Source of the DNA: an uncultured Peptococcaceae bacterium
GTDB taxonomy: Bacteria; Bacillota; Desulfotomaculia; Desulfotomaculales; Desulfallaceae
Assembly: GCA_913064925.1 (NCBI GenBank)
Contig: CAJYBN010000002.1
Span: 1-33,105, forward strand
Direction of reading: 5' to 3'
DNA: 33,105 nt
Shown: positions 24,500-31,044 of the stretch, in pieces
How the letters are laid out: the number at the start of each line of letters is the position of its first letter
Numbering within the stretch: the stretch's first letter is position 1
Notes under the pieces: generated by a model
The model's input: only the letters and a program-made list of their open reading frames with translations
Databases searched by the model: none
Told to the model about the DNA's origin: nothing
Translations under genes and position numbers: made by a program

Positions 24500-25798
24500 T
24501 TATATCTCCCGCCTGTCAACCACCCGCTTGGCTTTACCCTCGCTGCGGGGAATAGTACGCGGCTCCACCAGCTTGATCCGGGCGGAAATGCCCAGCACAC
24601 TGTTGATGCGGGAACGCAGCCTGTATTCCAGATCCTCCAGGTAACGCACCTTATCGCTAAACATCTGGTTGGAAAGTTCCACCCAAATCTCCAGATCATC
24701 CATGGTGCCTTTCCGGTCCACCACCAAGAGGTAATGGGGTTCTGTTTCGCCGAATTCCAGCAGCACGCTTTCAACCTGGGAAGGGAACACATTGACTCCG
24801 CGAATGATTAACATATCGTCGGTACGACCAGTTACCCGGCACATGCGTACATGGGTACGCCCGCAGGGGCAGGGCTCCGGATTGAGAACAGTAATGTCTC
24901 TGGTGCGGTAACGGATAATGGGGAAAGCTTCTTTAGTCAAAGATGTAATCACCAGTTCACCCTGTTCCCCGAAGGGGACTGGTTCTCCCGTTTCCGGGTC
25001 GATAATTTCGGCAATAAAATGATCCTCAAAGATATGCATCCCTTCTTTTACCGGACACTCCATGGCTACCCCGGGCCCCATAACCTCGCTGAGTCCATAA
25101 ATGTCCAACGCGGTAATATGCAATTTCTCCTCCAACTGCCGGCGCATGCGTTCCGACCAGGGTTCGGCCCCGAAAACCCCCGCCTTTAAAGGCAGCTTTG
25201 CAAAATCAATCCCCTGATTCCGGCCTTCTTCGGCAAGATATAAGGCGTAGGAAGGCGTGCAAGTTAAAATGGTGGTACCGAAGTCCTGCATCAGCATGAG
25301 CTGTCTGGCAGTATTTCCGCCGGAAACGGGCACTACCGTGGCACCTAGTAACTCGGCACCGTAATGGATACCCATGCCGCCGGTAAAGAGACCGTAACCA
25401 TACGCATTCTGTACCACATCGCCCTTCGTTCCCCCGGCCATGACCAGCGCCCGGGCCATAAGGTTGGCCCAGGTGTTTATGTCATTTTGGGTGTATCCCA
25501 CTACGGTAGGTTTACCCGTTGTCCCGGATGACGCGTGCAGCCGCACCACTTCCTCCATGGGCACGGCAAAAAGACCGAAGGGATAGTTATCCCGCAGGTC
25601 CGTCTTCACGGTAAAGGGCAGGTGGCGCAAATCGTCCAGGGAACGTATATCCCGGGGAGTAATCCCCTGCTTTTCAAAGGCCTGGCGGTAAAACGGAACT
25701 TTATGGTAGACCCTTTCCACCGTGGCCTGCAATCTTTGTAACTGTAATTCCGCTAAATTATCGCGCGACATAGTTTCGTATTCACGGTCCCAATACAT
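24500..25798 (-). CDS. paaK: Phenylacetate-CoA ligase family (PaaK-like)
   Basis: [74 protein letters not shown]; start chosen at internal Met. Confidence 0.9.
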
Positions 25799-25832
25799 CA
25801 AGGTTTTCCCCTCTCTCTCTGATGCTATTTTT

Positions 25833-26576
25833 TTACAGCGCCATGGCAGGCCGTACGCGCCTGCCAAGGTAAGCCTGCTGCACCGTTGAGTCAGCCATTA
25901 TCTCCCCGGAACTGCCGCTAAAGGTAATCCGTCCCCTTTCCATGATCAGGACGCTGTCGGCTACTCTCAGCGCGGATCTGGTATTCTGTTCTACCAGGAT
26001 TATTGTTACACCGGTGTTTTTCAACCGGGCCAGGGTGGCCATTATCTCCCGCACCACCATTGGCGCCAGGCCGACCGACGGTTCATCGAGGAGTAACAGT
26101 TTAGGGCGTGCCATTAACCCTCTGCCAATAGCAAGCATCTGCTGCAGGCCGCCGCTCAAAGTCCCCGCCATCTCCCGCTCCCTGCCTTTGAGTGCCGGGA
26201 AAATCTCCAGTATTTCTCTTGCGTCACTGTGTATTTCTTGTTTAGCATGCCTGTAACGGTGAAATGCTCCCAGCAGGAGGTTATCCCATACGCTTAAAGA
26301 ATGAAAAATTTCCCTTCGTTCAGGCACCAGGCTGATGCCCTGCCGGACTAGATATTCCGGTGGTTTTCCGGCTATGGATTTTCCATTAAGCAATATGTCC
26401 CCTTTTGCCGGCCTGTGCAAGCCGGCCAGTGTCTCAAGCAAAGTGCTCTTACCGGCCCCGTTGGCACCAAGAATGGCGAGCAATTCACCCTCCTTGGCGT
26501 GCAGGGATAGCCCCCTGATTGCCTGCACGTATCCATGATAGACATCCAGTGCTTGTATTCTAAGCAACCTGATCAT
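25833..26576 (-). CDS. livF: Branched-chain amino acid-type ABC transporter ATP-binding protein LivF
   Basis: [16 protein letters not shown] Walker [34 protein letters not shown]. Confidence 0.92.
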
Positions 26577-27411
26577 CCTCCCCGAGGTAAGCTTTAATCA
26601 CTTCCGGATCAGCCTGGACTTCTTGTGGTGTCCCCTCCGCGATGACATGACCAAAATTTAAAACAAGAACACGATCGGCGACTTCCATAACGGTCTCCAT
26701 GTCGTGCTCGATCAGAAGCATGGTTAAGCCTTTTTCCCTTAGTTTTTTGAGGTAAGCGGCCAGGGACCTGGTTTCCGTACTGTTTAACCCCGCAGCGGGC
26801 TCATCGAGCAACACCAGGCGGGGGCCGGAGGCCAGCGCCCTGGCTATTTCCAGAAGCCTCTGCTGCCCGAAAGGCAGGGCCGCTGCCGGCAGGCCCGCCG
26901 CCTCTTCCAGCCCGATCTCCTCAAGTAGAGCCAGGGCTTCTTCCTTAATCCTTTTATCCTCCCTGTTTTTGCTGGGTAGGCAAAACAGCGATTTGACAAA
27001 GCCGGTTCTGCCTTTTAAATAGGCGCCGGTAAGCACGTTTTCCAGCACCGTCATTCCGCTGAACAGCTGAAGGTTTTGGAAGGTCCGCGTAATGCCGGCT
27101 GCAGCAATCTGGTATGGTTTAAGACCAACCAGCTGTCGACCTTCAAACCTGATGGTCCCGCTGTCAGGCGGAAGCGCACCGGTGATCAGGTTAAAAATCG
27201 TAGTCTTACCTGCACCGTTCGGGCCGATCAAAGCAAAGATACTCCCCTTGCTTACCTTGAACCCGACGTCCTTTACCGCGGCAACACCGCCGAAGAATTT
27301 CGTCAGGCCCTTCACTTCCAGGAGCAAATTTCCAACCTCCCTCTTTAACCTCAAATGTCCTTTGATGGTATCCCCGTGCCAGGCATCTTTTCCGGGGACA
27401 ATTTCAGGCAT
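26560..27411 (-). CDS. livG: ABC transporter ATP-binding protein LivG (true start probably downstream, near LLLEVKGLTKFFGG)
   Basis: GPNGAGKTTIFNLITG, FGQQRLLEIARALASGPRLVLLDEPAAGLN. Confidence 0.92.
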   Translation of the reverse strand: MPEIVPGKDAWHGDTIKGHLRLKREVGNLLLEVKGLTKFFGGVAAVKDVGFKVSKGSIFALIGPNGAGKTTIFNLITGALPPDSGTIRFEGRQLVGLKPYQIAAAGITRTFQNLQLFSGMTVLENVLTGAYLKGRTGFVKSLFCLPSKNREDKRIKEEALALLEEIGLEEAAGLPAAALPFGQQRLLEIARALASGPRLVLLDEPAAGLNSTETRSLAAYLKKLREKGLTMLLIEHDMETVMEVADRVLVLNFGHVIAEGTPQEVQADPEVIKAYLGEDDQVA

Positions 27412-28358
27412 TTGCCCAAAGCACCTAGACCTTCAGGCCGGAAAATCATCAAGAGAACTAATATAAGCCCAAAAAAGATAATTTGATACTCGCCGCCCGC
27501 CCCGGGTATCACCAGCGGGACCGCCCAGCGCAGGAATTCACCCAGGGTTACTACCACCGCTGCTCCCAGCAAAGGGCCCCAAAAAGTACCCAGGCCGCCG
27601 ATAACAGCCATCAGCACAAACTGCACCGAAGCATGGAAACCAAACGGTGACGGGCTGATAAAGGTTACATAAAATGCATAGAGCCCGCCGGCCAAGCCCG
27701 CCAGGAGGGCGCTGAAAATAAAGGCCTGGAGCTTAAGCTTGGCGGTATCTATCCCGGCATTTTCAGCGGCATGCTCGCTCTCACTGATGGCGCGGAGCGC
27801 TCTGCCCACCCGCGAGCGGACCAAGTTGTTTATCCCAGCCAGAATCAGGAATAAGGTAATCCACACCAGGTAGAAAAATTTAATATCGCTGTCAAAGGTT
27901 AACCCGCCGATGGAAAGGTAAGGAATGCCGGTGATTCCAGACGGGCCTCCGGTCAGTTCCTTCCCCTCGGTGAACGCAATGTGGACCAGTATGCCAAAGC
28001 CAAGGGTGGCCAGGGCTAGATAAAGCTCCCGCAGTTTAAGCGTCGGCCGCCCGATTATAGCTGCAATTACCCCCGGCAACAGGGCTGCGGCCGGGAGCGC
28101 TAAAACTGTAGGCCAGTGAAAGCGCGTAGTTAGGATGGCCACCGTATAGCCCCCCAGGCCGAAAAATGCGGCGTGGCCGAATGATACCTGCCCCGCATAG
28201 CCCATTAAAATCCCAAGTCCCTGTACGATAATCGTGTAAAGGCCAATAACGATAAGAATGCTCAGGAGATAATTACTTTTTATTAGCAGTGGAACGGCAA
28301 AAAGAAGCAGTACGGCTGCCGGCCGTAAAATAGCTTTTTTCCACATTAAGCAAAACAC
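27351..28358 (-). CDS. livM: ABC transporter permease LivM
   Basis: GYAGQVSFGHAAFFGLGGYTVAIL, LTGGPSGITGIP, multi-TM. Confidence 0.92.
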   Translation of the reverse strand: MFCLMWKKAILRPAAVLLLFAVPLLIKSNYLLSILIVIGLYTIIVQGLGILMGYAGQVSFGHAAFFGLGGYTVAILTTRFHWPTVLALPAAALLPGVIAAIIGRPTLKLRELYLALATLGFGILVHIAFTEGKELTGGPSGITGIPYLSIGGLTFDSDIKFFYLVWITLFLILAGINNLVRSRVGRALRAISESEHAAENAGIDTAKLKLQAFIFSALLAGLAGGLYAFYVTFISPSPFGFHASVQFVLMAVIGGLGTFWGPLLGAAVVVTLGEFLRWAVPLVIPGAGGEYQIIFFGLILVLLMIFRPEGLGALGKCLKLSPEKMPGTGIPSKDI

Positions 28359-28416
28359 CTCTGCTTTAAGCGCCCTTCGTTAGTATCCTGGTTAATTGGC
28401 TATTAAAAGTGCCCAG

Positions 28417-29307
28417 CTAAATCTTCCGTTCCCTGATTGCCCCGATAATACCCTCAGGCCTGATCAAGAGAACTGCAAGCAGAATGATTATGGCGATGGC
28501 ATCTTTCAACCCGGAAGAGATCAGCCCGGCGCTGTAAGACTCTAAAATGCCGAGAAGAATTCCTCCCAGCACAGCCCCGCCGACATTGCTCAGTCCTCCG
28601 ATAACCGCAGCCACAAAACCCTTAAGCCCCAGCATGAATCCCATATCATAAGTCGTCATGGTAATCGGGGCGATGAAGATACCGGCTGCCGCGCCCAGTG
28701 CGCCGCTTGCCGTGAAGGCCAGGAAAGATACGGTATGGGGGTTGATACCCACTAACCTGGCTGCCGCCCGGTTGATCACGGAAGCTTTTACGGCCTTACC
28801 CCAATAAGTCAGTTCGAAAAAGGCGTACAGCCCGGCCAGAGTTATCGCCGTAAGGCCGAAAATCCAGAGGCTCTGGGGGTTTACAGCGGCCCCCCCGATA
28901 AAGAGGGGGCCGCCCTTGGAAAAGGCGGGGAGTGAATATGTTTCTGTGCCCCAAATCAGGAGTGCCAGGCCGCGCAGGGATATGGACAGGCCAATGGTGA
29001 TAATGATCAGGGTAAGGCCCGACGCCCCGCGCGCCGTGTGGATCGCAAAACGCTCAAGAAATCCTCCCAGCATCGCCACCAGGAGTACCGAAACGGTGAA
29101 CGCTGCCGCCATGGGCATCCCAGCTGCGTACATACTGACGGCCAGCAGCGCCCCGAGAGCAACAAACTCCCCCTGCGCCAGGTTTAGGATACCGGTTATA
29201 TTAAAGGTGGTAACCAGCGCTAAAGCAATTAAGGAATATATGCTTCCCAGGGTAAGCCCGGTAAACAGAAGCTGCAAGAGTTGATCAGCGATATGCAAAG
29301 GAAACAC
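28417..29307 (-). CDS. livH: ABC transporter permease LivH
   Basis: GLTLGSIYSLIALALVTTFNITGILNLAQGEFVALGA, GLKGFVAAVIGGLSNVGGAVLGG. Confidence 0.92.
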   Translation of the reverse strand: MFPLHIADQLLQLLFTGLTLGSIYSLIALALVTTFNITGILNLAQGEFVALGALLAVSMYAAGMPMAAAFTVSVLLVAMLGGFLERFAIHTARGASGLTLIIITIGLSISLRGLALLIWGTETYSLPAFSKGGPLFIGGAAVNPQSLWIFGLTAITLAGLYAFFELTYWGKAVKASVINRAAARLVGINPHTVSFLAFTASGALGAAAGIFIAPITMTTYDMGFMLGLKGFVAAVIGGLSNVGGAVLGGILLGILESYSAGLISSGLKDAIAIIILLAVLLIRPEGIIGAIRERKI

Positions 29308-29310
29308 CTC

Positions 29311-30495
29311 TTATTCTAAGAGTTTCCATTTACCGTCTTGAATCTGAACCAGGACCATTGAATCTTCATCCAGGCCGTTGTGATCCTGCGGGGACATGTT
29401 GAACACGCCCGATACACCTATAAATCCCCGGGTCTTCTCAAGCTGATCCCGAATTGCCGCGCGGTCCGGGCCGGCTTTTTCAATGGCGCTCACCAGCAGG
29501 TTGAAGGCGTCCCAGGCATAGCCGCCAAAGGAATTGGGTGGTGCATTATATTTCTTGCTGTAATCATTAATGTAGCCTTCGAGTACCTTTTTCTGGGGAT
29601 CGCTGTCCGGAATTTGGTCAGCGACAGTTAACTTGCCAATGGGCAGGATTACGCCGTCCGCGGCATCCTGGGCCAGGTCGATAAACTTTTGGTTGCCCAC
29701 GCCGTGGCTGTGTATGAGCGGGATTGAGAGCCCTATATCCCGGAAATTTCTGGTTAATATCGAAGCGGAAGGCGGAATCGCCCACACTACCGCAGCCTGT
29801 GCCGGACTGGCCTTTACCCTGGTTAGCTGCGGTGTCATGTCTTTGTCACTGGCATCAAATTTTTCTTCGGCCACAACTTCAATACCGTTTTCCCGCGCCG
29901 CGGCGGCAAACGCCTTTTTACCCCCGTCACCGTAGGCATTGTTCATATAAAGAAAAGCCACTTTGGTTATACCCTGTTCCTTCAGGTAACCGATGATTTT
30001 GTTAACCGTCACTATATCACTCTGGGCGGTTTTAAAAACCCATTGCCGATCCTTAACCGGCTCAACGATGCTGCTGGCCGCCGCCAAAGAAATCATGGGT
30101 ACTTTCTCTTTTTGCACCGTATCGATCATGGCCATGGACGGGCCGCTGGAACTGCAACCCAGCACGGCCAGGACATCTTTTTCAATTAGCGTTTTAACCG
30201 CCAGCACTGCCTCGGTTTCGTCGCTCTTGTTATCAAGGATGATTAAATCCACCGGGTGACCGTTGATCCCGCCGCTTGCGTTCAACTGATCAGCTAGCAT
30301 AAGTAAAGTATCCCGCTCGGGCATGCCCAGCGATGAAGCTTTTCCGCTGATGTCAAGAACCGCTCCTATTTTATAAGGCTCTTCTCCCGGCGTGTCTTTG
30401 CCGGCAGCGTCCTGACCGGAAGCGCAACCACTAATTAGTATGCTTGCAGCAAACAATAAAGCCAGCAAAACGGCCAAATTTGTCTTCTTTATCAT
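29311..30495 (-). CDS. livK: ABC transporter substrate-binding lipoprotein LivK
   Basis: Lipobox ISGC; PYKIGAVLDISGKASSLGMPERDTLLMLADQLNASGGINGHPVDLIILDNKSD. Confidence 0.92.
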   Translation of the reverse strand: MIKKTNLAVLLALLFAASILISGCASGQDAAGKDTPGEEPYKIGAVLDISGKASSLGMPERDTLLMLADQLNASGGINGHPVDLIILDNKSDETEAVLAVKTLIEKDVLAVLGCSSSGPSMAMIDTVQKEKVPMISLAAASSIVEPVKDRQWVFKTAQSDIVTVNKIIGYLKEQGITKVAFLYMNNAYGDGGKKAFAAAARENGIEVVAEEKFDASDKDMTPQLTRVKASPAQAAVVWAIPPSASILTRNFRDIGLSIPLIHSHGVGNQKFIDLAQDAADGVILPIGKLTVADQIPDSDPQKKVLEGYINDYSKKYNAPPNSFGGYAWDAFNLLVSAIEKAGPDRAAIRDQLEKTRGFIGVSGVFNMSPQDHNGLDEDSMVLVQIQDGKWKLLE

Positions 30496-30587: not shown

Positions 30588-30706
30588 AATAAAGGCCACA
30601 GCTTTCGCGGGGACGAAAGCTGTGGCCTTCCGCGGTACCACCCCGGTTGGTTATATAAACAACCCTCTCTTTAAGGGTACGGGAATATTACATCCCCTGC
30701 AGGTGG
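30588..30706 (-). ncRNA. T-box leader, module 2 lacking Stem I (Stem III plus antiterminator/terminator)
   Basis: AACCGGGGTGGTACCGCGG at 30648-30630; terminator AAGGCCACAGCTTTCGTCCCCGCGAAAGCTGTGGCCTTT; only ~60 nt precede it after terminator 1. Confidence 0.88.
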
Positions 30707-30709
30707 ATT

Positions 30710-30990
30710 AAAAATAAATAACTTTTCATCCTAAGGGACGAAAAGTTATTTTCGCGGTACCACCCTCATTGGTCTAAAATAGACCCACTCATTAAGCAGG
30801 GTACGGGAAATATTCCTTATACCCCCTTCCTTTTAACGGTGGAAGTTTCCGTTCGAGCCTACTTGCCCTTTGGTTTCAGCCCGACAGTTCGGGGGAGAAC
30901 TTCAACGGATCATACTTTAGAAGCGCTTGCAGTCCCTGGCGCTTCCTCCCTGAAAAAGCTGTGTTCCGCCTACTTTTCCCCTTCATCACT
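30710..30990 (-). ncRNA. T-box leader, module 1 (Stem I, Stem III, antiterminator/terminator)
   Basis: Minus strand AAAAGTAGGC (AGUA), distal GGAAGCGC...GCGCTTC, AATGAGGGTGGTACCGCG at 30770-30753, terminator AATAACTTTTCGTCCCTTAGGATGAAAAGTTATTTATTTTT. Confidence 0.92.
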
Positions 30991-31016
30991 TTTACATTAT
31001 GGTTATTTTTTTATAT

Positions 31017-31044
31017 TTTATAACTTACTTACATTGCAGGTCAA
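31017..31044 (-). promoter_or_regulatory. sigma-A promoter of the T-box-liv-paaK operon (TTGACC-N16-TATAAA)
   Basis: TTGACC 31044-31039, TATAAA 31022-31017, just upstream of the T-box. Confidence 0.65.

Follow-up and report, generated by a model that had tools for sequence, protein, structure and literature searches.

A phenylalanine T-box leader with one Stem I and two discriminator-terminator modules

Can a single tRNA-selecting domain serve two transcription terminators? The question is posed by one leader in a 33,105-nt stretch of DNA from an uncultured Peptococcaceae bacterium (contig CAJYBN010000002.1), the whole of which we call the window. On the minus strand, this leader sits between a promoter-like site (31044–31015) and a liv-type transporter operon, the first gene of which begins at 30495. 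A first-pass annotation had described it as a "1.5x" T-box in which one specifier would have to serve two antiterminators.

Anatomy of the leader

A search with RF00230, proposed in the first-pass annotation, returned one full element and one fragment. At the gathering threshold, Rfam reports a single T-box (30995–30731, minus strand; model positions 1–219; 130.4 vs. 93 bits), and this full-length match contains module 1. Module 2 was seen in a restricted search as a partial match (30674–30609, minus strand) to model positions 154–216 only, corresponding to Stem III and the antiterminator; because its 36.2 bits lie below the Rfam cut-off of 93 bits, routine annotation overlooks it. The T-box cores on the minus strand, GGGTGGTACCGCG at 30765–30753 and GGGTGGTACCGCG inside GGGGTGGTACCGCGG at 30643–30631, lie 122 nt apart, each with its own terminator as the annotation had described. 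The specifier loop, GAA-G-UUC-U-CC, was read as UUC (Phe) after aligning it with RF00230 and further Phe leaders. The features are as follows, the energies being computed values.

31015–31044, minus strand: promoter-like site TTGACC-18-TAAAAT, ∼20 nt upstream of Stem I (consensus match only)
30886–30995, minus strand: Stem I, the sole one in the leader, with IDTM loops and specifier loop (RF00230, Stem I model)
30897–30899, minus strand: specifier codon UUC (Phe)
30835–30884, minus strand: Stem II and Stem IIA/B, F-box CCGUUA (RF00230 alignment)
30798–30826, minus strand: module 1 extra hairpin GGGUA...UACCC (conserved, with compensatory changes)
30771–30785, minus strand: module 1 Stem III (RF00230; five of six pairs changed on both sides)
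30734–30766, minus strand: antiterminator 1, T-box bulge UGGUACC, with UGGU at 30762–30759 (RF00230, conservation; −7.8 kcal/mol)
30716–30751, minus strand: terminator 1 (T1), 16 bp, then AUUUUU (−17.9 kcal/mol)
30675–30700, minus strand: module 2 hairpin-like segment, ending in UUCCCGUACCC as in module 1
30649–30664, minus strand: module 2 Stem III (partial RF00230 match; paired in 12 of 12 orthologs)
30608–30645, minus strand: antiterminator 2, T-box bulge UGGUACC, with UGGU at 30640–30637 (100% paired in 12 orthologs; −14.1 kcal/mol)
30591–30630, minus strand: terminator 2 (T2), 18 bp, with a weaker U tract, UUUAUUCAUUUU (−31.4 kcal/mol)
29311–30495, minus strand: first regulated gene, a liv-type periplasmic amino-acid-binding lipoprotein (Peripla_BP_6)
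24500–29307, minus strand: remainder of the apparent operon, livH, livM, livG and livF-like genes and phenylacetate-CoA ligase (PaaK)

Promoter-like sites occurred twice in the region vs. 1.3 times expected by chance. In module 1, the antiterminator and terminator helices overlap and are mutually exclusive, and both are conserved. T1 is rich in AU and runs into a good U tract; T2 is GC-richer with a poorer one.

From hairpin to terminator, module 2 spans 30700–30591 (minus strand) without a Stem I of its own. The Stem I model found exactly one Stem I in the leader, and the stretch from T1 to Stem III of module 2 is just ∼40 nt long, where a Stem I needs ∼110 nt; the claim that only the upstream T-box has room for Stem I was borne out. 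Full double T-boxes occur commonly (PMC9413887, PMC12452182), and the leader might have been an ordinary one whose second Stem I is cryptic or has diverged. The ∼40-nt interval refutes this reading on length, neither Rfam with an E-value threshold nor our own Stem I model found a hidden second Stem I in the window leader, and across the multi-module loci described below the Stem I model found none between cores spaced 84–143 nt; we regard it as hardly credible. Full double and triple T-boxes (thrS, trp, and his transporter operons) share serial terminators with the window leader, but in them the second unit has a Stem I and specifier of its own, whereas here it has neither Stem I nor Stem II.

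How, then, does the layout relate to known systems? A canonical single transcriptional T-box (RF00230) has the same UUC-specifier Stem I, Stem II, IIA/B F-box, Stem III, UGGUACC antiterminator, and terminator, but the window leader repeats the discriminator-terminator cassette. The glycine tandem-aptamer riboswitch likewise has unequal numbers of sensing and switching parts; its tandem aptamers with one expression platform are the reverse of one ligand-selecting part with two expression platforms. Vitreschak et al. in 2008 reportedly described a structural class of T-boxes with duplicated terminator-antiterminator elements. The window layout is of this known kind, the partially tandem T-boxes, in which one specifier domain is followed by duplicated antiterminator/terminator elements, and no anatomical difference from them is demonstrable. 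That name was given in a 2020 review, which states that their modes of action remain unknown (PMC7583486). What the present analysis observed is a duplicated hairpin before Stem III, a concordant discriminator-contacting base in the two modules, and the absence of aminoacyl-tRNA synthetase targets.

The block common to both modules, GGAATATTTCCCGTACCC / GTAATATTCCCGTACCC, had been taken as evidence for a duplication of Stem III plus antiterminator. The duplication stands, but its extent was slightly underestimated: the block is the 3′ arm of the extra hairpin preceding Stem III, the repeated unit includes this hairpin, which ends in UUCCCGUACC immediately 5′ of Stem III, and the duplicated unit comprises hairpin, Stem III, antiterminator, and terminator. 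As a general idea, sequestration of the T-box sequence GGUAC by CCCGUACC before Stem III was rejected, because leaders with a UAAC core retain CCCGUACC despite weakened pairing and because a Met T-box with only one module (L006) has this hairpin too.

Conservation, distribution and tRNA matching of module 2

To gauge constraint on module 2, we used 12 leaders orthologous to the window leader, which precede livJ-like or paaK genes. The pairs of antiterminator 2 and of its Stem III were kept in 100% of cells, antiterminator 2 being almost invariant, so that it offers conservation and no covariation evidence of its own. For T2, pairing was preserved in 98.5%, both partners having changed at three pairs, and the observed level of pairing and covariation was reached by 0 of 500 shuffles and lay far above slid controls. 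Module 1 showed the same paired conservation with more variation. As judged from these alignments, the second antiterminator and terminator are conserved as structures, as in a partially tandem T-box.

We found a two-core pattern (cores 84–144 nt apart) in 42 of 60 relatives, where the first-pass annotation had suggested looking for the same layout; the hits include 15 of the 16 genomes of the family, with this one counted. Read backwards, the pattern matched in 0 of 60 relatives, which rules out chance pairing of two T-box-like words. A wider contig search gave at least 115 stretches in many Bacillota genera along with some non-T-box false positives (repeats in Nostoc, Opitutia, Paraburkholderia, and others), which were excluded from the Stem I search and from all counts. 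We then built a Stem I covariance model and ran it on the two-core loci: one Stem I followed by two or three cores before any further Stem I was found in at least 129 leaders, at least 121 of them distinct, across Bacillota. Among the 129 listed, 123 have two cores and 6 have three. The listed specifiers are mostly Phe (UUC), the rest being Tyr, Ser, Trp, and Leu, with Trp UGG and some Ser and Leu specifiers assigned from alignment. The same genome carries a second Phe leader with one Stem I and two cassettes (L010; G000:C144:2584-2948; spacing 120), which precedes a DAHP synthase gene. Five three-core leaders from the Bacillus cereus group and Paenibacillus (L065, L067, L092, L121, L154) are Phe-specific with ∼88-nt spacing and precede SNF-family transporters, and L112 has three cores after one Stem I, spaced 93/90 nt; the cassette can thus be reiterated. 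Because standard Rfam annotation is silent on the second module, such leaders are under-counted. A separate observation concerns L045 (Alicyclobacillus fastidiosus), in which four Stem I matches fall within a short stretch on both strands, forming divergent T-box arrays that include a full tandem with an additional cassette.

Within the family, module 1 and module 2 can each be identified in different genera of two paralogous groups, and the duplication is therefore ancient and retained. The rarity implied by the first-pass annotation was wrong, the layout being widespread, old, and of a class already named (PMC7583486). This age also weighs on the idea that module 2 arose by a duplication that is recent or neutral, T2 serving as a mere backup or near-constitutive attenuator. 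Tandem duplication is a known route of T-box evolution, and the computed stability of T2 greatly exceeds that of antiterminator 2 (−31.4 vs. −14.1 kcal/mol); however, the duplicate is old, and the 12 orthologs fully conserve antiterminator 2, for which a terminator alone would have no use. We consider this account improbable.

Which tRNA does module 2 accept? The T-box bulge UGGN pairs through N with the tRNA discriminator base, which is A73 in Phe, Tyr, and Leu tRNAs and G73 in Ser and Trp tRNAs; no tRNA-Phe turned up among the tRNAs of this draft genome, and A73 for Phe is the general assignment. Among the distinct leaders listed, N of module 2 was C in 22 of 25 Ser/Trp leaders vs. 1 of 89 Phe/Tyr/Leu leaders, and N of module 1 was C in 23 of 25 vs. 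4 of 89. The single module 2 exception in the Phe/Tyr/Leu set, L144, resembles a misread Ser leader before serA. The association of module 2 N with the tRNA class of Stem I has a Fisher p of ∼3e-19, an overstated value because kinship is ignored. The Phe, Tyr, Ser, and Trp cases are spread over different genera and gene contexts, and the window leader has U as N in both modules. Because N of the second UGGN follows the specificity class of Stem I, module 2 tracks, across the class, the same tRNA that Stem I picks, although agreement between modules also follows in part from common descent of the duplicate. N was discordant (C/T or T/C) in 6 of the 121 leaders listed (L055, L056, L069, L073, L103, L125), which are candidates for modules with differing tRNA preference.

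These data bear on whether discriminator 2 binds a separate uncharged tRNA without Stem I, either cognate or any with the right discriminator base, which would give a general plus specific starvation readout. In favour, module 2 has all the parts of a discriminator unit, discriminators on their own are able to sense aminoacylation (PMC7583486), and one tRNA 3′ end could not occupy both modules simultaneously. The class-following base nevertheless speaks against a separate tRNA, and it disfavours the earlier suggestion that module 2 senses any uncharged NCCA end. Moreover, when only the elbow contacts of Stem I are removed, tRNA is bound as much as 60-fold more weakly and in vivo read-through is lost (PMC7583486), so that a module lacking Stem I should be a poor competitor. 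On balance, a separate tRNA seems unlikely. The "1.5x" anatomy, with one specifier for two antiterminators, is instead supported by the single Stem I and by the matching base of module 2.

Genes under control

The UUC specifier of the window leader fits the genes it regulates, a liv-type uptake system and PaaK, and orthologous leaders directly precede paaK. The phenylacetate-CoA ligase gene (window 24500–25867) lies under the Phe T-box here and directly so in several relatives (L173, L183, L188, L201–L203), which suggests phenylacetate salvage into Phe, not catabolism. Elsewhere in the window, a Moco/tungsten riboswitch (RF01055; 1192–1311, plus strand) lies upstream of a TupA-like tungstate-binding protein gene (1423–2301), and aldehyde ferredoxin oxidoreductase and formate dehydrogenase genes are also encoded.

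Across the class, the 114 first downstream genes fall into 29 Pfam families, and no aminoacyl-tRNA synthetase family was among the 25 listed. The major families are DAHP synthase (44), class-V aminotransferase/SerC (13), and SSF (10), followed by periplasmic binding protein (9), SNF (6), anthranilate synthase TrpE (6), the Na+/H+ antiporter family (5), SerA (4), and PaaK-type ligase (3), with IlvD, IlvB, prephenate dehydratase, and others also present. In contrast, 8 of the 11 single T-boxes of this genome precede synthetase genes (ileS, thrS, metS, pheS, alaS, glyQ, valS, and leuS-type, named by inspecting protein starts). The comparison of 8/11 with 0/114 gives a Fisher p of ∼1e-10 with kinship ignored. 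Both multi-module leaders of this genome precede other genes, and its pheS T-box (L007) is single-module with a UUC specifier. Among high-scoring single T-boxes of relatives, 11 of 26 lead into leuS-type or ileS operons, the genes again being named from their protein starts. The layout appears to guard genes for amino-acid uptake and synthesis, not those for tRNA-charging enzymes.

The single T-boxes yielded observations of their own. At the tip of its Stem III, the leuS-type T-box of this genome (L003/L028; G000:C243:2850-3140) carries an entire tRNA-Ala(GGC) gene, which has G3:U70 and an encoded CCA; the host T-box has the specifier CUC (Leu), and its operon is leuS or acyl-CoA ligase then leuS. 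The nested copy is the only tRNA-Ala(GGC) among the tRNAs detected in this genome. The same nested tRNA was found at the same position in ∼14 distinct loci of the order checked, with complementary Stem III arms. A tight pattern matched 19 of 150 relatives from 13 genera, some outside the order, with a backward control of 0 of 150; besides L003/L028, loci with the nested gene are L189–L195, L197, L216, L222, L229, L231, L239, L248, L249, and L252–L257. In one genus (G003, G007; L195, L197), the nested tRNA-Ala differs in sequence and is still GGC. The nesting has been conserved in several families and also outside the order. Plausibly, the leuS leader doubles as a tRNA precursor from which RNase P releases the tRNA regardless of termination. 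A limited literature search found no paper on a tRNA-Ala nested in a leuS T-box, which is perhaps more unusual than the two-cassette leader. At the 3′ end of L003, the contig terminates in an Illumina adapter-like sequence, AGATCGGAAGAGCG. In L011 (1501–1932), a T-box is followed by a subthreshold Guanidine-I riboswitch match before an ilvE-like gene; T-box plus guanidine riboswitch arrangements are of a known type.

A probable serial reading of one tRNA

Probably, then, the leader is a Phe T-box whose single tRNA-binding domain, formed by Stem I and Stem II, is used at two successive discriminator-terminator checkpoints. The observed basis consists of the anatomy with its single Stem I, the conservation of both modules, the cognate discriminator base in each, and the class of target genes. 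tRNA-Phe would be chosen once, via the UUC specifier. When uncharged tRNA-Phe sits on Stem I, its 3′ end would stabilise antiterminator 1 and let RNA polymerase pass T1. Module 1 may then fold harmlessly into its terminator hairpin behind the polymerase, releasing the tRNA 3′ end, which would have to be re-read by discriminator 2 (antiterminator 2) before the polymerase clears the strong T2. The ligand of discriminator 2 would most likely be the same Stem I-held tRNA, handed over from module 1. With charged tRNA or none, transcription would end at site 1, and leak-through would be stopped at site 2.

If both terminators act, two in series would multiply the leak and yield a tighter OFF state; the sharper response that the first-pass annotation envisaged could arise in this way. 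A tighter OFF state would suit a transporter or salvage operon, dispensable when Phe is plentiful and costly when unneeded, whereas synthetases would require basal expression and hence keep a single terminator. Against serial checkpoints, the second discriminator lies 122 nt past the first, the relay geometry being a model; the weaker U tract of module 2 could make termination there inefficient; and the agreement in N stems partly from common descent, with related leaders inflating the p-values.

More tentatively, and as a conjecture that could well go either way, the 3′ end of one Stem I-bound tRNA may be inspected two successive times as polymerase advances (three in some Bacillus and Paenibacillus leaders). 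Such a relay would resemble kinetic proofreading, would multiply the OFF state, and would be used only at uptake and biosynthesis genes, not at synthetase genes. Leaders with one, two, and three discriminators per Stem I and the same Phe specifier form a natural series in which the value of repeated tRNA reading is measurable. The leader and its more than 100 relatives lead to the prediction of a tighter OFF state that would be absent from synthetase genes.
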